Under the pieces are notes generated by a model. It had not been told where the DNA came from and searched no databases. It saw only the letters and a program-made list of their open reading frames with translations. A stretch of 64,000 nt of DNA from Nitrosopumilus zosterae (lineage in GTDB: Archaea > Thermoproteota > Nitrososphaeria > Nitrososphaerales > Nitrosopumilaceae), in NCBI RefSeq assembly GCF_025998175.1, contig NZ_AP026695.1, forward strand, positions 994,760 through 1,058,759. The letters run 5' to 3'. Both the position numbers and the translations under genes were made by a program. Position 1 is the first letter of the stretch. Every line of letters begins with the position of its first letter. Below, one piece after another: positions 40,188-54,961 of the stretch.

Positions 40188-41087
40188 TTATTGTGCTTCC
40201 ATTCTAGCAAGCCAATCGTTATCATTGTCGTCTTTTGGAGTTTCTGGTGTCACCTGTTGAGGTGGTTCTGGAAATGCAAATGTTGTTTCAGAGTTAGTTG
40301 GTGGTTCTGGTATTGGTAGAACACCTGCTTCTATTGGTTCTGAATGACTTGCAAATTTTTCGGAATGTGTTACTATTGGTTCAGTTGGTGCTTCTGGAAG
40401 TATTGACTGAACTACTTGTTGTGGTTCAGATGTCTCCAGATATGAAACGGCAGATTCTTGGATGTCTGGTGTTGAAGGGGAAGTTATCTCCTGCACTTCT
40501 AATTCAAGGTCAGCAATTCTACTCTTTACATTTGCGATTTCAGCTGTTTCGTGAGATACATGTTCAATTATTTCAGTTGTGCATGCTTTCACTGTCTCAA
40601 ATGTTGCATCAGAGATTTCATTACTCTTGAATTGTACTTTTGCATCAAAGGATAACATTTTTGCAGACTTCATTTGTTCATCTAACTCTGTCAATCTTGC
40701 CTCAAGTTTAGCTTTGATTTCATGTTCTGTTTCATCTAATGATGCAAGTTTTGACTTGTATTTTTCGTGAATAATTTCTGCATCCACTTTCATGTCATCA
40801 TTTTCAGAAACAATGTCAATCAACGCCTTTAGACGACGTATTGTTAGTTGTTTTTCACGAATGAGTCTTTGAGAATCTAGTCTCCATTTTGGAATAAAAA
40901 TAACAACATCGCCTTGCACTACAAGTTGCTCATATTGGATTTGCTGTAATCCCTGAGAACCGCAGTCAATGCCAACGGACTGAATACTTCCGTCAATGTC
41001 AGTTATTGTTCCAACGACTTTACCCATGAATGTACCGTACATGTCTTTGACTTTTTTACCGATAATTTCGATATCGTCGTGGGTCAT
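40188..41087 (-). CDS. cdvA: CdvA cell-division protein
   Basis: The 299-residue protein has the CdvA layout: an N-terminal PRC-barrel-like part (IIGKKVKDMYGTFMGKVVG, then VVIFIPKWRLDSQRLIREKQ), a central coiled coil (SKLASLDETEHEIKAKLEAR), and a Pro/Glu-rich tail (PEPPTNSETTFAFPEPPQQV) ending NDWLARMEAQ. CdvA binds the membrane and DNA at mid-cell and recruits the ESCRT-III-like CdvB through its C-terminal peptide. CdvB and CdvC are not in this window. The integrated element begins just upstream of its start, so part of its promoter may be affected. Confidence 0.86.
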   Translation of the reverse strand: MTHDDIEIIGKKVKDMYGTFMGKVVGTITDIDGSIQSVGIDCGSQGLQQIQYEQLVVQGDVVIFIPKWRLDSQRLIREKQLTIRRLKALIDIVSENDDMKVDAEIIHEKYKSKLASLDETEHEIKAKLEARLTELDEQMKSAKMLSFDAKVQFKSNEISDATFETVKACTTEIIEHVSHETAEIANVKSRIADLELEVQEITSPSTPDIQESAVSYLETSEPQQVVQSILPEAPTEPIVTHSEKFASHSEPIEAGVLPIPEPPTNSETTFAFPEPPQQVTPETPKDDNDNDWLARMEAQ

Positions 41088-41149: not shown

Positions 41150-41160
41150 GATTAAATTCA
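41150..41160 (+). repeat. Left candidate attachment repeat
   Basis: ATTAAATTCAC here matches 54951-54961 exactly; with flanks it is TAA-n-ATTAAATTCAC-n-AA at both places. It lies 63 bases before cdvA and 54 bases before the integrase start. Eleven bases is short in AT-rich DNA, so position is the main argument. Confidence 0.35.
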
Positions 41161-41213
41161 CAAAAGTTTGAATGAAAACCTTTTACACGATTACTAAATT
41201 TTCAAGGTAATTC

Positions 41214-42926
41214 ATGCCTACCAAAATCTATCAAGTAATTGAAGAATTTGAACTGGGAAAGCACTGTCAACCAAAAATGACACCAGCAGTGATCAAGTGT
41301 TTGAAATTACTCAGAAAAGGAATGGAATTTCAACCAAAGCAATTCATTGAAGAAAACCAAGATTATCTGACAAAAAGAAGCAAAGACAGATTCAATGCAT
41401 GTCAAAGTCTTGTTTCTACAAGTCTGAAATTTGGCAGAGAGATGGGAATTGTTCAAATCAAAGAAACCAAACCAATTTCATATCAAGATTTTTGTAATTT
41501 AGACACTATCCAATACATGTCAAGTCAACTAAGAGGTTCAAAGACAAAGAACTTGAAAACTAAAGTTGGACATGACAACTCTACCAAACGTCATTACACA
41601 TTACAATTACACTATTTCAATAACTGGTTACATGGTAAATCATTTGACTTTAACATTACAAAACAAATTGATGTTGATACTTTCAAGAAAGAAAGAACCA
41701 GAGTTACTTTAGATGGTATTGAACATTTCTTACATCTGTATCAAGAATCAATGAACAGTGAATCAGATTTTGTGAGAGTTATTAAATTGTATTTGATGGA
41801 TGAGATAAACAAAGATTGTTCTGCAAAATACATGTTAGGAAAATATTCTGCAATAGTTTCATACTTTGAAAAGAATGACAGTCCAATCAAATTCAAATAC
41901 AATCCATTTAGTGTTCATGACGATTATAAAGAAGAAAATGCAGATGCGACACTATCGTTATCTGATTTACACAAGTTACTTGCAAATGCAAATCCATTAG
42001 AAAAAGCAGTTGTACTTTGCAAGTTTCATAGAGGACTAGATTCATCAACATTAGGTGACAGATTTAATTTCCAAGTTGCAGAACAACTAATCAAATGGTT
42101 TGATAATGCAGACTTTGATAATTGGGATTTGAAAAAATGTCCAGTGCCAATCAAACTTACTAGAATCAAAACAGACTATACGCATGTTGGTTATCTAGAT
42201 GCTGATGCAATAGTTGCAATTCAAGAATATCTCAATTACAAATATTCTTCATTTGTTACAACATCAAGAAGAAATGGTATTGACCCTAATTACCTTAAAG
42301 ACAAATCCCACTTTATTGAGCCTGAAAAACCACTATTTACAAATAGATTGAATGAACCAATCACAATTAATTGGATATCTAGAGTAGTACCAAGATTAGC
42401 AAAGAAAGCAGGTATTCAAAAATTCATCAAAGGAAATAGATTACAAAATAGAAGTGAAAAGAACGGACATGAACTTAGAGATTTACTAAAATCAACTTTG
42501 ATTATTTCTGGGTGTGCTGATTATGTTTGTGAATTATCAATAGGGCACAAGGTTGGGGATTCCTATGAAAAACAAGACAAACTATACCCAGAGGTTTCAA
42601 GAAGTGAATATGCAAAAGCATCATCTAAAATCAATATTCTCTCTAAAGTATCTAATCTGCTAGACAATGATGGCGATACAGAACAATACAAGATGATGTA
42701 TGACGAGTTGAAATCAAACATTTCAGAAGCAATCAGGTCAGAAATGCAAACTAGACTAGAAGAACTAAAGAAATCAGTTGATCTTCAAATAAAGAATACT
42801 GAAAAAAGAGAATCAGATGCATCAGCATTGGCAGAGGAATTAATCAGAAAATCTAAACAACATAAAATGAATCCAGAAAGAAAAGCAAAACTTAGAGAGA
42901 TATACAATATTCCAAAGTACACTTAG
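41214..42926 (+). CDS. int: Tyrosine recombinase / integrase
   Basis: The 570-residue integrase is longer than most. The catalytic region lies in the C-terminal half: Arg in CKFHRGLDSSTLGDRF, the HxxR of NGHELRDLLKST, His in LSIGHKVGDSYEKQ and the Tyr in DKLYPEVSRS. A long coiled tail (LRKSVDLQIKN-type heptads) follows. The N-terminal 190 residues likely form arm- and core-binding domains. It cuts and rejoins DNA at the attachment site; the gene sits intact beside the left repeat, unlike SSV-type integrases that are split by integration. Confidence 0.85.
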   Translation: MPTKIYQVIEEFELGKHCQPKMTPAVIKCLKLLRKGMEFQPKQFIEENQDYLTKRSKDRFNACQSLVSTSLKFGREMGIVQIKETKPISYQDFCNLDTIQYMSSQLRGSKTKNLKTKVGHDNSTKRHYTLQLHYFNNWLHGKSFDFNITKQIDVDTFKKERTRVTLDGIEHFLHLYQESMNSESDFVRVIKLYLMDEINKDCSAKYMLGKYSAIVSYFEKNDSPIKFKYNPFSVHDDYKEENADATLSLSDLHKLLANANPLEKAVVLCKFHRGLDSSTLGDRFNFQVAEQLIKWFDNADFDNWDLKKCPVPIKLTRIKTDYTHVGYLDADAIVAIQEYLNYKYSSFVTTSRRNGIDPNYLKDKSHFIEPEKPLFTNRLNEPITINWISRVVPRLAKKAGIQKFIKGNRLQNRSEKNGHELRDLLKSTLIISGCADYVCELSIGHKVGDSYEKQDKLYPEVSRSEYAKASSKINILSKVSNLLDNDGDTEQYKMMYDELKSNISEAIRSEMQTRLEELKKSVDLQIKNTEKRESDASALAEELIRKSKQHKMNPERKAKLREIYNIPKYT

Positions 42927-45026: not shown

Positions 45027-45896
45027 CTAATCTAAACTAATTTTTGCTTTTACAGATTCATCAATAAGATAATTTACAAATGCCGAGCATGCCACTAGCA
45101 TGAATTGGGCTTCTTCAAAATCCAATTTATCTTTAGGAATTTCTGACAAGCCATGACGAACTCCTGAATTAGAACTAGACCAACCATAAATTTTATCAAA
45201 TGCTTGTTTTAATGGAGTGGGCAATTCTATTTTACTTTCTTTTTCAATTATCTTAAGAGCCTGTCCTAAAGTTGTATTGGATTCCCCTGTAATTTTTTTA
45301 CATATTGACTCAACTGCATGTATTGAATTAGTTATGGAGCCATCAAAGTCAGGATTATCTTGAGTTAATAATTTATTTGCTTTTTTCATATACGTATTAA
45401 CAATATCTATTGGAGTGTTGAATGATTTGTTAAGTGAAACAATCTCTTCTTCCCTAGTGATAATAGAAATTTCATCACCTACAATTCGATAACCAACATT
45501 TTTCTTTTTAAGAAAATTGTTTACATGATCAGATAAAGTATCTTTTTGATCTTCTAGCAGATGATCTTTTCTTAACTCATATTCAAAGATACTTAGTAGA
45601 AATTTATGTTCAGAATTAGTAAAGATTTCTTCCAATACATCTAGAACAGATTCATGGTTTACACTAATATCTGAAATAGATTTTTCTAAAAATACTATCC
45701 AAAAATTTTTCCATGCTATGAAACCATCATCTTTTTCAGACCACATACCACCGTATGTTTTATACTTAAAATGATATTTTTCTAACACATCTCTGACAAA
45801 AATATTGAACAAGCCAATTCTGGTTTTTGAATCTAAATCATTCTTTTGAAATTTTATTTTTTGATCTTTCTCAAAAAAATAAGGCTTTTTACTCAT
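45027..45896 (-). CDS. AbiJ-like HEPN protein (abortive-infection type)
   Basis: The 289-residue protein has an AbiJ-type N-terminus (DSKTRIGLFNIFVRDVL) and the characteristic C-terminal HEPN-like region: SIHAVESICKKITGESN, LPTPLKQAFDKIYGWSSS, then NSGVRHGLSEIPKD. This arrangement is found in abortive-infection proteins, which stop phage by harming the host. It is co-transcribed with the membrane protein at 43967. Confidence 0.72.
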   Translation of the reverse strand: MSKKPYFFEKDQKIKFQKNDLDSKTRIGLFNIFVRDVLEKYHFKYKTYGGMWSEKDDGFIAWKNFWIVFLEKSISDISVNHESVLDVLEEIFTNSEHKFLLSIFEYELRKDHLLEDQKDTLSDHVNNFLKKKNVGYRIVGDEISIITREEEIVSLNKSFNTPIDIVNTYMKKANKLLTQDNPDFDGSITNSIHAVESICKKITGESNTTLGQALKIIEKESKIELPTPLKQAFDKIYGWSSSNSGVRHGLSEIPKDKLDFEEAQFMLVACSAFVNYLIDESVKAKISLD

Positions 45897-47741: not shown

Positions 47742-48643
47742 TTTTTAACGAGTTCTCCTTCTATACCTTCAACAAACTCATCAATTATTTCTTCTTTTGC
47801 TTGTTCTTGAGGTGTAAACTGTAATGATGGCTGAGGATTTGGTCGAGGTTCTAAGAATCTAATAAAAGACTCTCTCCAGGTAGCGATCATTTTCCAAAGC
47901 AATTTACTTACAGAGTCTGGATCTGCTCCTTTCTCAAAAATTTTCAAAACTTCTTCAATTAATGGTAATATTTCTTCTCGGGTTCTTTTTTCAAAATCTA
48001 CTTTATCTACAGCAGTAATTGCAATGTAATCATCTACTCTTTCAAGCATTATGATTAAACACCACAAATAGGTTTCATTGATTTTTGTTCCATAAGTTCT
48101 TGCAGTTCTGTTTAATTCATTTAAAATTCCTTTAAGAAGATTGTTTGTTACAAATGTAACATCTCCTTTTCGTCTGTTTAAAATTTCCAGAATTTTTGAA
48201 AATGTTGCATTTGTAAAATCAGGATTTGATGGATACACGTCTTTTTCTTCTGGTGGCAATAGGGATTTTCTGTATTTTTCTCTTTGAATATTGAATTTTG
48301 TCCAAAGTTCTGTCAAATTGAATTTTCCAGAAGATAATTGAGTTATAATAAAATCTGAAAAAGATGATGCCTCACTGGTTACTTGTTTAGCACCGTTAGT
48401 ATTATTCACACGTGATGAGTTTAATGCATCTAGGGCAAATTGACGTAATTGGAAGCCAACAATACCATAATTCAGATTATCGAAAAACCAAGCATTTGTC
48501 ATAATTCTATTTGCCAAAATGTTTGATGTTTTGAAATCACTTTTTTTCATAGATTTGACATAATATAGTAATTCAGATTTGAATAATTCATTGTCATATG
48601 TAGAACTTTTTGTCATATTGTATGAATTAGAAATTTTCCCCAT
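47738..48643 (-). CDS. Element protein, unknown (301 residues)
   Basis: A helical protein with an N-terminal Ser/Thr/Asn-rich part (MGKISNSYNMTKSSTYDNE) and an acidic Gln/Glu-rich tail (QFTPQEQAKEEIIDEF). It overlaps the next upstream gene by 17 bases and the one below by four. I see no enzymatic motif. This three-gene set is the most obscure part of the element. Confidence 0.6.
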   Translation of the reverse strand: MGKISNSYNMTKSSTYDNELFKSELLYYVKSMKKSDFKTSNILANRIMTNAWFFDNLNYGIVGFQLRQFALDALNSSRVNNTNGAKQVTSEASSFSDFIITQLSSGKFNLTELWTKFNIQREKYRKSLLPPEEKDVYPSNPDFTNATFSKILEILNRRKGDVTFVTNNLLKGILNELNRTARTYGTKINETYLWCLIIMLERVDDYIAITAVDKVDFEKRTREEILPLIEEVLKIFEKGADPDSVSKLLWKMIATWRESFIRFLEPRPNPQPSLQFTPQEQAKEEIIDEFVEGIEGELVKK

Positions 48644-48872
48644 ATTTATTATCTTTAGCGTATCTATCTTTAAACATCAATACACGTATTGAGTTGATTT
48701 TATTATGGACTTGCGATTTCTGAATCCTCAAAATAATATCACATCTCATACACCAATAAACCTGAATTTCCATGCCTGGATTATGCCTATTTTTGGTCGA
48801 AATTACTGCATCATAGACCATCTTTTTGTTAGAACCACATTGAATGCAGTAAACATTAGGATATCTAGCCAT
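48627..48872 (-). CDS. Zinc-ribbon element protein (81 residues)
   Basis: The protein begins MARYPNVYCIQCGSNKKMVY and has a second pair in YWCMRCDIILRIQKS. Two CxxC pairs about 32 residues apart make a zinc ribbon. It is the first gene of the reverse operon that continues to 46968, and an 82-bp inverted repeat lies about 43 bases upstream of its start. Confidence 0.68.
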   Translation of the reverse strand: MARYPNVYCIQCGSNKKMVYDAVISTKNRHNPGMEIQVYWCMRCDIILRIQKSQVHNKINSIRVLMFKDRYAKDNKYGENF

Positions 48873-48915
48873 GATGTATTAAACAATAATAGATAGATAA
48901 CAGCACAGGAATAAT

Positions 48916-48997
48916 TCTTGACACTTTTACTTCAAAACTTTCTTTACTTACAAAATAATTTCCATCTAGAAGAAATGTTTTACCAAAAGTGTCAAGA
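48916..48997. repeat. 82-bp inverted repeat, copy 1
   Basis: TCTTGACACTTTT (48916-48928) and AAAAGTGTCAAGA (48985-48997) are a perfect 13-bp inverted pair separated by 56 bases. The inner flank TACTTCAAAACTTTC recurs, with one change, in copy 2 at 51929-52009. It sits upstream of the reverse-strand operon starting at 48872. Confidence 0.75.
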
Positions 48998-49069
48998 CAT
49001 GATAAAACTTGTGCCTAAAATTATCTTTCAGTTTTTCTTAAATTAAAAAAGGTTAACCCGTTTACTTTT

Positions 49070-49346
49070 TGTCATTAACATTAATACAAATATTCAATGA
49101 TTATTTAACAAATTTTTTCATAAAAATAATGTTGTTAGGTACCGTTAACATTGATTTTTAGGAATATTTAACAAAGAAAATGTTATGCTTTTTTTGAGTT
49201 TATCATTTTGATTTTAGGTACCGTTTATAATTTTCAATACAAAAAAAACTAAACAAATGTTTAACAAAATCAATGAAAATTTTAGCAATTTGAGAAGTCT
49301 GAATTTTGATTATACTTTAAATAAAAATTGACGAGGAAAGGACGTA
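49070..49346. other. AT-rich region with short direct repeats, origin-like
   Basis: TTTAACAAA occurs at 49104-49112, 49167-49175 and 49260-49268. GGTACCGTT occurs at 49138-49146 and 49217-49225. TTAACATT occurs near 49075 and 49145. The stretch is very AT-rich, has no gene, and lies directly upstream of the RHH, zinc-finger and SF3 helicase genes. This is how a plasmid origin or an iteron-type control region looks. A TATA-like stretch (TATACTTTAAATA) near 49310 would serve the RHH gene. Confidence 0.45.
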
Positions 49347-49502
49347 ATGAGTCAGAGCATAAGAGCAGTTGTGTCCAAAAAAAATTATGATAAAATAATT
49401 AAACTAACAGAATTACCTTTTGATATAGGATTTGATAAAGCAATCACATTAATTCTTGATAAATATGAAAAATCCATTACAAAGGACGGTGCTAAAAATT
49501 GA
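49347..49502 (+). CDS. Ribbon-helix-helix-like regulator (51 residues)
   Basis: The ATG frame, preceded by AGGAAAGGACG, reads MSQSIRAVVSKKNYDKIIKL, then TELPFDIGFDKAITLILDKY. A strand of alternating residues followed by two helices is the RHH (Arc/MetJ-like) layout. It would bind the repeats immediately upstream and control the helicase operon, of which it is the first gene. Confidence 0.62.
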   Translation: MSQSIRAVVSKKNYDKIIKLTELPFDIGFDKAITLILDKYEKSITKDGAKN

Positions 49503-49696
49503 CTGTTCTAATTTCACTTACCACTGTAAGCCAATCAGTTGTAAGACCTTTTCAATTTGTGACAGTAGGGTATTTCATCACTCTACTGTCACTGGTCATT
49601 ATTCAAAATAAAAAAATAGTTAGGGATGTTTCTTTAGAGAGGTCATCACTAACATCACAAAACTTTGGTAGAAGATTGGTGATTAATGATGTATAG
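49499..49696 (+). CDS. Small membrane protein (65 residues)
   Basis: From a TTG that overlaps the RHH stop the frame has one span (VTVGYFITLLSLVIIQNKKI) and a basic end (QNFGRRLVINDV). It overlaps the next zinc-finger gene by 11 bases. The tight stacking supports translation; the role is unknown. Confidence 0.45.
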   Translation: MTVLISLTTVSQSVVRPFQFVTVGYFITLLSLVIIQNKKIVRDVSLERSSLTSQNFGRRLVINDV

Positions 49697-49925
49697 CAGA
49701 CCTGAAATATTAAAACCCACAAAAGTAAATTCAGAGAATCTTAGATTCCCTTGCATTATTTGTGATGATGAAAATGGTAACAGAAAACACAAAGTCTTTG
49801 ATAACATTGATACTTTAGATAGGCATACTAAAGCACTTCATTCCAAACATCCATGTTACAAGGCAGTAAAGAACATCATTAGAAACCTACGAAAAGCAGT
49901 AGATTTAGGCATGGTGAGAACCTGA
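49686..49925 (+). CDS. C2H2 zinc-finger protein (79 residues)
   Basis: The protein has FPCIICDDENGNRKHKVFDN and TLDRHTKALHSKHPC, a C2H2 finger with CxxC and HxxxxH spacing. The remainder is basic (NIIRNLRKAVDLGM). Its stop overlaps the next start in ATGATG-type coupling. DNA binding at the nearby repeats is possible. Confidence 0.68.
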   Translation: MMYSRPEILKPTKVNSENLRFPCIICDDENGNRKHKVFDNIDTLDRHTKALHSKHPCYKAVKNIIRNLRKAVDLGMVRT

Positions 49926-50191
49926 TGAGTAAATGGATTCATGCCAAATTTAGCCTAGATGGCAGTAATCGTCTAATTAGTGCAGATAGAAAAACTTGGT
50001 TTATCAATATCAATCAGAAATATTTCAAAAATATGGTATCTGAACTGGTCATAAAATTCACAGATCTAGTTTGCAAAGTCTGCATGAAATCTCATCATAC
50101 TCAATCAGGATTGATTAGTTGTTTGTGGTTTCACAGACATGACAGCATAGACTATTATCTTGATAACATAATGGATGACAAAAATGAATAG
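49925..50191 (+). CDS. Zinc-binding protein (88 residues)
   Basis: The protein ends in a metal-type cluster: LVCKVCMKSHHTQSGLIS, then CLWFHRHDSI. CxxC, two His, a further Cys and HxH can ligate zinc. The start overlaps the upstream stop and the gene overlaps the helicase start by 17 bases, so the operon from 49347 to 51704 is translationally coupled. Confidence 0.62.
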   Translation: MSKWIHAKFSLDGSNRLISADRKTWFININQKYFKNMVSELVIKFTDLVCKVCMKSHHTQSGLISCLWFHRHDSIDYYLDNIMDDKNE

Positions 50192-51704
50192 TGTTCCTTT
50201 AGTAAATTGTCAGAATTGCAGAGAAGATAATTGTGAAAAATGTCAATTTCCAGATAAATGTAGATGTGCACATTACAAACACAGTAATGATTTACGGATT
50301 GGTGTCAAAATTAATGATTTTAAAACAAATATCGATAATCTCATGGAAATCTTTGCAGTTGAAAACAATCTCAAATTTGAGGGGGAAGAAAAGATTGATC
50401 AGGTTGTAAAACTTTTAAGAAAATTTTACAATTTTGTAACATTACGAAAAACAGAAGAAATTCTACTATACAATGGAAAAATCTATGATAATATCCAAGC
50501 AGAAACAGTCATCAAAGAAAAAACTGAGAAATTAATTCCTAATTGCACCACTCATAACAGACATGAAGTTATCAATAAAATCAAAGCACAGACTTTTGTT
50601 GATTTAGAAAAATTTGATGCAGACCCAAATCTAATTACTGTTGAAAATGGGATTTTGAATCTTCAAACACTAAAACTAGAACCACATACACCAAATCATC
50701 TAAGTCGAGTATTATTACCAGTAGAATTTCATAAACCCAAATCTACAAACATTGAAAAGAATCTCAAAAACACCTTGTTTTGGAAATATCTAAAATCATC
50801 ATTTACTGTCAAAAGAAGATTTAGAATAGAGGATTTTGAAACAGTCTTGGAAATTACAGCAAGTCCAATTATCAAAAGACATATTGATGAAAAAGCATTC
50901 ATGTTTTTAGGCAATGGTGAGAATGGCAAGTCTGTTCTTCTATTTTACATAAAGTCATACCTAGGAGAAAACAATGTCAGTAGCATCTCACTTCATGATA
51001 TTGCCGAAAATAAGTTCATGAGGGCTAATTTGGCAGGCATGTCAGCAAACATCTTTCCAGATTTGGAAGAAAATGAACTCAGAAATGCTGGAAAAATCAA
51101 GGCAATCATATCAAATGAGGGTATAGAGGTTGAGAAAAAATACCAGCAAGGCTTCACATTATACCCCTTTGCAAAACTCATGTTTTCATGTAATAGATTT
51201 CCCAAAGTCTTTGATCAATCACAAGGCTTCTTTCGACGATGGATAATTGTTAAATGGGAACGTGATTTTGAAAACGATCCTGAAAGAATAGAATATCTCA
51301 AAGAGAGTCTTGCAGAGAATCAAGAAGAGAAAAACAAAGTATTTTCAAATCTAGTATTAATTGCACATAAACTAAACAAAGTAGGTAAATTCACACATAC
51401 AAAAAATTGGAAAACAATCCAAAGAGAGTGGAGTGAAAACGCAGACCCAATTGATGAATTTAACTCTAGTTACATTTTAGACAGTGAATCACACAAGACA
51501 AAAAAAGAGACATATCATTTCTACAAAGAAATAATGTTAGAAAAAGGTCAAACCCCTAAAGGAATGGGTCAGTTTAGCAAGGCGTTTTCTGAATGGCATG
51601 ATGAAGATAGGATAGAAATTGATGGGAGAGTTCAAAGAGTTTGGTTGAATATTTCATTTAAAATGCCAAAACAAGAAACACTTGCAACAGTTGATACAAC
51701 TTAG
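50175..51704 (+). CDS. D5-type SF3 replicative helicase with N-terminal Cys cluster
   Basis: The 509-residue protein is a D5/P4-type SF3 helicase. Walker A FLGNGENGKSVLLFY is at residues about 246-253, followed by ANIFPDLEENELRNAGKIKA (B region) and LMFSCNRFPKVFDQSQGFFRR (motif C and arginine finger). The first 40 residues have seven cysteines (NCQNCREDNCEKCQFPDKCR) likely binding zinc. I see no AEP primase domain, so the primase may be supplied by another protein or the host. It unwinds the element's DNA at replication. Confidence 0.87.
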   Translation: MTKMNSVPLVNCQNCREDNCEKCQFPDKCRCAHYKHSNDLRIGVKINDFKTNIDNLMEIFAVENNLKFEGEEKIDQVVKLLRKFYNFVTLRKTEEILLYNGKIYDNIQAETVIKEKTEKLIPNCTTHNRHEVINKIKAQTFVDLEKFDADPNLITVENGILNLQTLKLEPHTPNHLSRVLLPVEFHKPKSTNIEKNLKNTLFWKYLKSSFTVKRRFRIEDFETVLEITASPIIKRHIDEKAFMFLGNGENGKSVLLFYIKSYLGENNVSSISLHDIAENKFMRANLAGMSANIFPDLEENELRNAGKIKAIISNEGIEVEKKYQQGFTLYPFAKLMFSCNRFPKVFDQSQGFFRRWIIVKWERDFENDPERIEYLKESLAENQEEKNKVFSNLVLIAHKLNKVGKFTHTKNWKTIQREWSENADPIDEFNSSYILDSESHKTKKETYHFYKEIMLEKGQTPKGMGQFSKAFSEWHDEDRIEIDGRVQRVWLNISFKMPKQETLATVDTT

Positions 51705-51922
51705 TGATGTCTTTCAAACAAGGGTAAAATAACAAACCAAGTTGTTAAACCATTAAGAGTTACAACAGCACCATATACCATTATCATAAGACCCAATGCT
51801 TGTGGACTTTCACTTGCATAGGAATTGATTTCATTAAAGAGGATAGAAAATACAATATCTATAATCGCAGTAGTAATGACTAGAATTATTTGCTCTGGTG
51901 GATCAATGGGATTTTGACTCAT
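51701..51922 (-). CDS. Small two-span membrane protein
   Basis: From the ATG at 51922 (MSQNPIDPPEQIILVITTAI) the 73-residue protein has two spans (IILVITTAIIDIVFSILF and ALGLMIMVYGAVVTLNGLTT) and a basic end. The GTG at 51937 lies inside the inverted repeat copy 2, so I prefer the ATG. It ends four bases into the helicase gene on the other strand. It could be a holin-like or membrane anchor protein. Confidence 0.58.
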   Translation of the reverse strand: MSQNPIDPPEQIILVITTAIIDIVFSILFNEINSYASESPQALGLMIMVYGAVVTLNGLTTWFVILPLFERHH

Positions 51923-51928
51923 AGTGGT

Positions 51929-52009
51929 TCTTGACACTTTACTTGAAAACTTTCACGATATAGAATTTGATAACTAATTAAGGAAACTTTTTGACCAAAA
52001 GTGTCAAGA
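51929..52009. repeat. 82-bp inverted repeat, copy 2
   Basis: TCTTGACACTTT (51929-51940) and AAAGTGTCAAGA (51998-52009) repeat copy 1 at 48916-48997, with the same inner flank ACTTGAAAACTTTC and the same ACC before the right arm. As in copy 1 it lies just upstream of a reverse-strand gene start. Confidence 0.75.
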
Positions 52010-52251: not shown

Positions 52252-54012
52252 TTATGACAAATCGTCTTGATCAGACTGTTTTTTTTTCCAGTTGCCATAC
52301 CAGTTTGATAGTGCTTTTGGCGTTTTTTGTTCAAATTCCATGTTAGGAATAACACCCTCATTTTGCAACTGGGTCAATTCATCTTTAATCTGTGTCCAAT
52401 TCCAACCTTGTTTTCTATATCCATTAATTCTTTTGAAAATATCATCTTTGATTTTCTTCATATTTTTTGATGCGTCTTTTCTTTCCTTTTTTGATAATGC
52501 AGATTTTTCAATTGGTTTCTTTTCTTTGTTAATGGTCCATCTAATTCCAGTATACTGTAAGAAATCTTCTGTTGATTGTCGATGATGCCAGGATGGAAGA
52601 TTGACGGTAATTAATTTGATTTCTTGATTTTGCCATGTAACGTATGCCTTGTTATCAGGTAGTTCATCAACATATGGTCGTCTATCATCCAGATATTTTT
52701 TTAATTTTGAATGTTTTCTTTCAATAACTCGCAACTGTTCAATTTTTTCAATGAATTGTTTTTTGTAAACACGTCTTGCCAATCCTAATCTATCATATTC
52801 AACCTTTGAGAACAACCATGAAAAATTTTCACCAAGAATATTTCTAGAGCCTCTTTTAACAATTGTTAGATTTCCTTGTTTCTTAATTCCAGAATACAAA
52901 TCTTCTGGGTCTTGATAATCACACAACAACCATGTTTTAAAATGTCTAGCCTCTGGAACATATCCAAATACTGCCTTTTTTGATATCCCTGCATCTTTAT
53001 CACCGTGCAAATTACTGGATGGTGCAACAGAGCGAACCTCGTTAATTACAATAGCAACCTTATGCCATGCCTTTTGTTTTCTTGTCCAATACTTTCTAGG
53101 CTTTTTTACATCATGTTGTGTTAAAGGCATAAAATGGCCCGAATTAGTCATTAGATTAGGCATCATTTTGAATATCTCAGCTAATGTATAGAATTTGTCC
53201 ATTTCACCATCAAATAGGCTTGGATTCATTGAGACAATTCTGTGTTCTTTTCTAGAATCAAGAATTATTTTTGTAAATTCATCATGGAATTTTATTTTCC
53301 TATCAGCAGTTGTAGGGGTTGTAAAATACTGAACCTTGATTACTGGTTTTGGTCGGGCATATTCAGGAATTAGTAATTTTCCTTGTTTTAACAACTCTTT
53401 TTGAAAAGTTGTAATCTCACTGAAATATTCAGAATAATGCTTCAAATCGCTGAAATAGAACCCATTAAAGCGATCAAGGGATTCTTGGTCAAACTCTAGA
53501 TAATCAGGAACCGCAACAGTTATCGGAATTGCCCTATGACAATTACAATGAAGCAATTCTCTTTTGGACAGTTGTAATCCAAATTCAGTAAGTTTTAGTT
53601 GCGTTTCATCATAATGCTCAATTAAATTCTCTTCAAGCGCAATATCCTTGTATTGTTCATATTCATCTCCATACAGACCTTTTGATGCACATCTTTCTCT
53701 ATGATTTCCTTGATGTGTTTTGTCTGAAAATACATCAACAATTATTTTGAGTTTGTCATAATGATATTTGCAATTATTGTTGATTGCGTAGTATAGATTT
53801 TCTAGACTTCTTGCACCCCAAATATGTAAAATGGTGAAACCCTGATTGTATAATTTTTCAACAGTTTCATCAACCATCACAGATTTTCCCGAACCTCTCA
53901 TACCCTGATAGAACAGAATTTGGGGTTCATCAAAATTCAACCAATCCTTGGATGCATTTTTGATAGGTTTTCCATCTTTGAATGCAGGTACAAAATCATA
54001 TGTTTGAGACAA
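52252..54012 (-). CDS. P-loop ATPase of the element (HerA/FtsK-like or packaging type)
   Basis: The 586-residue protein has Walker A FYQGMRGSGKSVMVDE at residues 37-44 and a strand AIVINEVRSVAPSSN that would be the Walker B, with NE instead of DE. The middle has Cys/His residues (HCNCHRA). The last 80 residues are basic and wind-like (YRKQGWNWTQIKDELTQ), suggesting a DNA-binding end. Size and layout fit a translocase that moves DNA in packaging or transfer. I cannot choose between HerA/FtsK and viral packaging families. Confidence 0.68.
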   Translation of the reverse strand: MSQTYDFVPAFKDGKPIKNASKDWLNFDEPQILFYQGMRGSGKSVMVDETVEKLYNQGFTILHIWGARSLENLYYAINNNCKYHYDKLKIIVDVFSDKTHQGNHRERCASKGLYGDEYEQYKDIALEENLIEHYDETQLKLTEFGLQLSKRELLHCNCHRAIPITVAVPDYLEFDQESLDRFNGFYFSDLKHYSEYFSEITTFQKELLKQGKLLIPEYARPKPVIKVQYFTTPTTADRKIKFHDEFTKIILDSRKEHRIVSMNPSLFDGEMDKFYTLAEIFKMMPNLMTNSGHFMPLTQHDVKKPRKYWTRKQKAWHKVAIVINEVRSVAPSSNLHGDKDAGISKKAVFGYVPEARHFKTWLLCDYQDPEDLYSGIKKQGNLTIVKRGSRNILGENFSWLFSKVEYDRLGLARRVYKKQFIEKIEQLRVIERKHSKLKKYLDDRRPYVDELPDNKAYVTWQNQEIKLITVNLPSWHHRQSTEDFLQYTGIRWTINKEKKPIEKSALSKKERKDASKNMKKIKDDIFKRINGYRKQGWNWTQIKDELTQLQNEGVIPNMEFEQKTPKALSNWYGNWKKKQSDQDDLS

Positions 54013-54950: not shown

Positions 54951-54961
54951 ATTAAATTCAC
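54951..54961 (+). repeat. Right candidate attachment repeat
   Basis: ATTAAATTCAC repeats 41150-41160 in the same orientation. It lies 78 bases after the last element gene and 59 bases before the next chromosomal gene at 55020. Confidence 0.35.

Follow-up and report, generated by a model that had tools for sequence, protein, structure and literature searches.

Two copies of a short inverted repeat lie some 3 kb apart in a 64,000-nucleotide stretch of the Nitrosopumilus zosterae genome (hereafter the window), and the question that this locus raises is which protein uses them and to what end. The first-pass annotation had noticed two inverted pairs (A and B, Table 1) with a common inner flank, each adjoining a reverse-strand gene start (48872 and 51922), and had suggested that they suit a DNA loop, operators of one regulator or else a site for a transposition-like enzyme. 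Both pairs lie exactly where it had placed them, next to those gene starts. With respect to function we reach a different answer: both pairs are most likely docking sites for the helicase that starts replication of a mobile element, with pair B as the origin and pair A as an unusual second copy.

Two inverted pairs with a common anatomy

In pair A the 12-mer TCTTGACACTTT occupies positions 48916-48927 and its complement positions 48986-48997, with 58 nt in between; in pair B the same two words are 57 nt apart. The arms of pair A extend to a 13/13 match, after which 56 nt separate them, and in all four places the arms are identical at 12/12 to 13/13 positions, each unit being 81-82 bp long. The 12-mer has four exact matches in the 1,775,052-bp genome, all of which make up the inverted pairs A and B (the pattern read backwards, which served as the control for this count, gave one match per strand). 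The observation is correct and is not a matter of chance. The exact pair was found in 0 of 249 other genomes of the family and in 0 contigs of IMG/VR, and an Rfam search returned no match. Note that the exact-sequence searches retrieved only the window itself because the arm sequence is specific to the element.

Alignment of A with B bore out the common inner flank (ACTTCAAAACTTTC vs ACTTGAAAACTTTC on one side, GAAATGTTTTACC vs GAAACTTTTTGACC on the other): the centres are more alike than shuffled sequences (p 0.0005) and the outer flanks are unrelated. The centres are AT-rich (76-79% A+T, with 79% in pair A), and both pairs also contain an inner inverted box, AAAACTTTC or a variant of it, located 15-17 nt inward of the GACA core. 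From this comparison, A and B look like two copies of a functional site that have diverged except where something binds.

An integrative element brackets its replication gene with the pairs

Both pairs are situated inside a 13.8-kb integrative element that has an integrase-like gene at its left end and is bounded by direct copies of the att core ATTAAATTCAC (Table 1), and five congeners have the uninterrupted (empty) site. The insertion point is located ~64 bp upstream of gene 40188-41087, which we take to resemble cdvA (PRC-barrel plus coiled coil), and integration of the element may alter the promoter region of this gene. Elsewhere in the element, the product of 45027-45896 has an AbiJ N-terminal domain 4 (Pfam, above cutoff) and is likely to be anti-virus defence cargo.

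Between A and B runs a forward operon of small ORFs, the last gene of which is rep. No primase domain is recognised in the Rep of this element, and an AlphaFold model of it, made from 5 sequences, had a mean pLDDT of 33.5. The non-coding region before the rep operon (49053-49270, 78% AT) contains three TTTAACAAA and two TAGGTACCGTT repeats, possibly an operator or promoter array of that operon. GC skew tracks gene orientation and is uninformative.

Table 1 Features of the integrative element and of its two inverted pairs (window coordinates)
Feature	Position	Strand	Remark
attL core ATTAAATTCAC	41151..41161	.	
Tyrosine-integrase-like gene, left end of element	41214..42926	+	weak family matches
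Pair A, second site copy	48916..48997	.	divergent intergenic region 48873-49346, upstream of rep operon
Pair A left outer iteron (candidate) TCTTGACACTTTT	48916..48928	+	
Pair A left inner box AAAACTTTC	48934..48942	+	
Pair A right inner box (GAAATGTTTT on + strand)	48972..48981	-	
Pair A right outer iteron (candidate)	48985..48997	-	
Accessory motif TAGGCACAA adjoining pair A	49009..49017	-	
Small RHH-like ORF, 51 aa, opens rep operon	49347..49502	+	no curated family match
Small ORFs of 79 aa (zinc-finger-like) and 88 aa, between RHH-like ORF and rep	49686..50191	+	
rep: D5_N/DUF5906 SF3 helicase, proposed initiator	50175..51704	+	P4-family primase C-terminal TIGR01613, above cutoff
ORF of a small putative membrane protein, lying between rep and pair B	51701..51922	-	
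Pair B, putative origin of replication (AT-rich centre between inverted Rep iterons)	51929..52009	.	224 bp beyond the rep stop
Pair B left outer iteron (candidate) TCTTGACACTTT	51929..51940	+	
Pair B left inner box AAAACTTTC	51946..51954	+	
Pair B right inner box (GAAACTTTTT on + strand)	51983..51992	-	
Pair B right outer iteron (candidate)	51998..52009	-	
ATPase-like gene	52252..54012	-	homologue in L041 (49-51% identical) lies past a site of this kind
attR core ATTAAATTCAC	54951..54961	.	

Two similar units that bracket a replication module might be the ends of a small, MITE-like transposable unit, or recombinase sites flanking a 3-kb cassette, and replication modules do differ between elements whose flanks are common. 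However, no convincing target-site duplication was found, the genome holds no further copies, relatives have a single unit in a fixed place 3' of rep, and the element's own integrase sites lie elsewhere. We therefore regard such a unit as extremely improbable, and the earlier suggestion of a transposition-like enzyme is not upheld, given the want of a convincing duplication and the position of the element's ends. (Two other elements, L100 and L101, have the integrase, left genes and/or ATPase in common with the present one, and have different replication proteins; these differences appear, on sequence comparison, to reflect exchange of the replication module.)

The pair accompanies Rep rather than the small regulators

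The operator proposal held that an RHH-like regulator (the product of 49347 or of 54293) controls the reverse genes that start at 48872 and 51922, perhaps with A and B joined in a DNA loop. Each pair does lie just upstream of a reverse-strand start, and two distant copies would suit looping. However, upstream of the homologues of the reverse gene 48627-48872 (seven loci, 65-74% identical) no such pair is present, a pair follows rep in elements whose next gene has the opposite orientation, the sister element L100 has an RHH-like homologue of 49347 and no such pair, and neither small protein, 49347 nor 54293, matches an RHH family. In the converse comparison, no homologue of 49347 was found in the relatives that carry a pair, which is a weak test with a protein of only 51 aa. 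RHH operators are thus improbable. An operator of gene 48627-48872 was rejected on its seven homologous loci without a pair, and the RHH operator idea on the distribution of the genes.

Two elements separate the pair from its neighbours. One (G092) matches the present element in its integrase, left genes, RHH-like gene and ATPase and has a different replication protein; the other (G034) has the ATPase and the 48627 gene in common with the present element, together with another large replication-type protein. Neither has such a pair. The pair thus travels with this Rep. What stands of the operator proposal is that these are paired candidate sites for one DNA-binding protein of the element, and what does not stand is the protein and the role that were proposed: by their distribution, the sites would belong to the P4-family SF3 helicase Rep and not to the small RHH-like proteins or to the reverse-strand genes.

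A site of the same layout follows rep in related elements

Relatives of Rep occur in 24 other genomes of the family, and their loci were compared together with the flanks (some relatives sit at contig ends); the closest relatives have Nitrosopumilus MAGs as hosts. Inverted repeats with a span of 60-115 were sought in an unbiased scan, in which the interval after the rep stop was set against 719 other intervals. It reached p<=0.0125 in 9 of the 14 elements whose Rep is at least 42% identical, the present element included, for a binomial probability of 1e-14; note that the elements share ancestry, so these statistics overstate independence. Of the related elements for which enough sequence exists, most have a pair of this type close behind rep. 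Moreover, inward GACA was present in 11 of 15 repeats near rep vs 2 of 70 elsewhere, and one of those two is itself an orphan origin-like site. (This site, at L053 15831-15913, is a TCCTGACAC pair with inner boxes ~6 kb from a truncated rep fragment; it is a remnant of a decayed element.)

The words in the outer arms differ from element to element: ACCCGACAAAA, AAACCCGACA, GTGACACTGT, TGTTGACATTT, CCCGACACTTT (four copies), AAATAGGTGACATTTTTAG, AAAACGGGACACATA, AAAAGGTGACACTTT (three copies), TGACACTTT and, in the present element, TCTTGACACTTT. For instance, the pair in L041 or L042 has CCCGACA where the present element has TTGACAC. Apart from scattered one-mismatch matches, each word is restricted to the spot after rep of its own element. 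An inner box close to AACTTTCTTT, about 14-17 nt further in, accompanies most of the pairs. A search for the motif across the element family, as the first-pass annotation had advised, would miss the relatives, since the outer arms change between elements and what persists is the layout with its GACA core. Likewise, the absence of the pair from related elements, named there as a refuting finding, holds for the exact sequence and does not hold for the anatomy.

Some relatives depart from the simple pair. L037, L047 and L086 have 3-4 copies of their word, some in direct orientation. In the viral contig L086 (Rep 65% identical, from a separate search) there is no repeat within 360 bp of rep, and three copies of CCCGACACTTTA sit ~500 bp past it, two of which form a GTTCCCGACACTTTA inverted pair with a span of 80. 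Little downstream sequence is available in L045, which has a weak pair only (TAGTGAC). Among more distant Reps (28-45%) the words are GGTAAC or GTTAC, several of them forming inverted sets around AT-rich DNA (L024, L051, L055 and L058), and clear repeats are missing in some distant homologues.

These multi-copy sites bear on whether the pairs act as RNA, for example as a hairpin or as a terminator or processing element at the 3' end of the rep mRNA. Strong hairpins are predicted at the sites (z -2.4 to -4.9), one of which is 3' of rep. However, pair A is not 3' of rep, and three or more copies in direct and inverted orientation make no single hairpin; moreover, in pRN1 the terminator is separable and dispensable whereas the large inverted repeat is required (PMC4234260). 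The sites with 3-4 copies and direct repeats therefore favour protein-bound iterons, and an RNA element is very improbable. (Going by the folding predictions, recognition of a hairpin structure is a possible mechanism at the sites.)

The 8-mer AGGCACAA beside pair A also adjoins the pair, within about 20 bp, in L037, L042, L050 and L053. It occurs within 30 bp of 4 of 15 sites vs 0.045 expected (p 2e-7), a count from which L042 is left out as a fifth site in which the motif overlaps the element's own arm. L086 carries the variant AGGCACGAAAT. The motif may be a host factor site or an origin element.

Counterparts in pRN plasmids and satellite islands

The only relative of Rep in the PDB is 7ola/7om0 (E 1e-14), labelled DNA primase; we take 7ola to be the Rep of SaPI5. 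Rep is also homologous to ORF904 of pRN1 (33% over 147 aa, E 7e-21).

The mapped origin of pRN1 has a 21-nt stem and a 58-nt loop and lies 54 bp 3' of orf904, and among pRN plasmids the layout of the origin is kept and its sequence is not (PMC4234260). Pair B resembles the origins of the Sulfolobus plasmids pRN1 and pRN2, in which an inverted repeat of ~100 bp, its centre 58 nt long, closely follows the gene of a P4-family SF3-helicase Rep: it is a large perfect inverted repeat with a centre of about 58 nt and variable arms, and it follows the rep stop, whereas pair A does not. We read the pRN1 arms as TTATGTCCATAGTGTCCAACT (span 100, containing GGACAC) and those of pRN2 as CGGACCGATAGGACAGGAAA (span 97). 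As in pRN1, the arms are perfectly symmetrical and contain GACAC, and their sequence varies under a constant layout. A small repressor (orf56) opens the pRN1 rep operon, and here the RHH-like ORF 49347 occupies that position, although it does not align to ORF56. The differences are that the pRN1 arms are 21 nt long and uninterrupted, with GACAC facing outward, whereas here they are 12-13 bp plus an inner box, with GACAC facing inward; that pRN1 has one copy only, whereas here a second lies 5' of the rep operon; and that ORF904, at 904 aa, has a primase domain, unlike the present Rep as far as domains were recognised. Comparison across many elements suggests that the "stem-loop origin" of pRN1 may really be an initiator iteron pair with a GACA core.

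In PICIs the origin is directly 3' of rep, with two iteron sets around AT-rich DNA (PMC6092414), and the iterons recognised by the SaPI Rep and by SCCmec Cch2 lie a short way downstream of the respective gene; Cch2 binds through its C-terminal domain, with the iteron AAGTG (PMC7581432). The word AAGTG is contained in AAAGTGTCAAGA. The present element likewise has a homologous Rep and, 3' of its gene, iteron-like boxes that flank AT-rich DNA on either side. It differs in having a single bipartite iteron per side (one outer and one inner box) where SaPIs and PICIs have several short ones, and in its archaeal host; it is not known to depend on a helper virus, and we do not file it as a PICI.

Repeats or iterons 3' of rep were also found in most of the bacterial and haloviral homologues read, namely Lacticaseibacillus phage R23.1 (TGGGACACTTCAGGGACAC pairs), Streptococcus satellites and phage MissB2, Lactococcus bIL310, Paenibacillus phage LincolnB, a Halorubrum tailed virus and an Alicyclobacillus plasmid; haloarchaeal plasmids were ambiguous. 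The phage R23.1 record (L092) has an unannotated GGGACACTT iteron array, in inverted sets, just 3' of its P4-family helicase gene, and its length of 14.5 kb is that of a satellite island. Cryptic integrated elements of Thaumarchaeota resemble the present one in having a tyrosine integrase, diverse replication proteins and, in NitAR2-E2, a homologue of the Cch helicase (PMC6563490); a term search of the text of that paper found no mention of a replication origin for them.

Pair B as origin and the two readings of pair A

We infer binding, melting and replication from these comparisons, by which pair B is very probably the replication origin and both pairs Rep-binding iterons. In this model each 81-82-bp unit would be a bipartite dyad for the element's own SF3 helicase Rep, in which the outer box (NNNNGACACnnTT) would confer specificity for the element and the inner box, near AACTTTCTTT, would be common between elements. 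The C-terminal domain of Rep would bind the two inverted outer half-sites, aided by the inner boxes, and Rep would assemble as two head-to-head rings, one per side, and melt the AT-rich centre, leading to bidirectional replication of the excised 13.8-kb element. Two features sit less easily with an origin: a small reverse gene separates pair B from rep, and pair A is not on the side of rep where a canonical origin would be expected.

For pair A, the second copy that Rep would bind, we regard two roles as nearly evenly matched: it may serve as another origin, or as an operator in the divergent promoter region through which Rep acts on the rep operon. That B alone is the origin and A only an operator, by which Rep represses its own operon and with it the divergent left operon, has in our view somewhat less than an even chance. 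Pair A does lie in the divergent intergenic region before the rep operon, its half-sites are the same as those of B, and no second pair was seen in the relatives whose region upstream of rep was read. On the other hand, A keeps the complete anatomy of an origin, including its AT-rich centre and AGGCACAA as it occurs beside the origins of relatives, and less sequence would do for a simple operator. A more elaborate arrangement, in which two functional origins bracket the rep operon and are paired by Rep (handcuffing or looping) to control both copy number and Rep's own transcription, we consider unlikely. It would make the module a swappable cassette, which would be why related elements keep their flanks and exchange the replication gene.

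By layout and homology, then, the locus looks like a functional Rep-iteron origin of a thaumarchaeal integrative element, duplicated around the rep operon. A Rep-iteron origin 3' of rep is of a known kind; what is unusual is pair A, the copy 5' of the rep operon. The iteron reading would place the origins of pRN plasmids and integrative elements from archaea in one class with those of satellite islands from bacteria, and it bears on the question of what SF3/P4-family initiators recognise. For the mobile elements of ammonia-oxidising archaea, it provides short, concrete candidate origins together with their cognate initiators, and rep with an 81-bp origin pair would be an obvious starting point for a plasmid vector.
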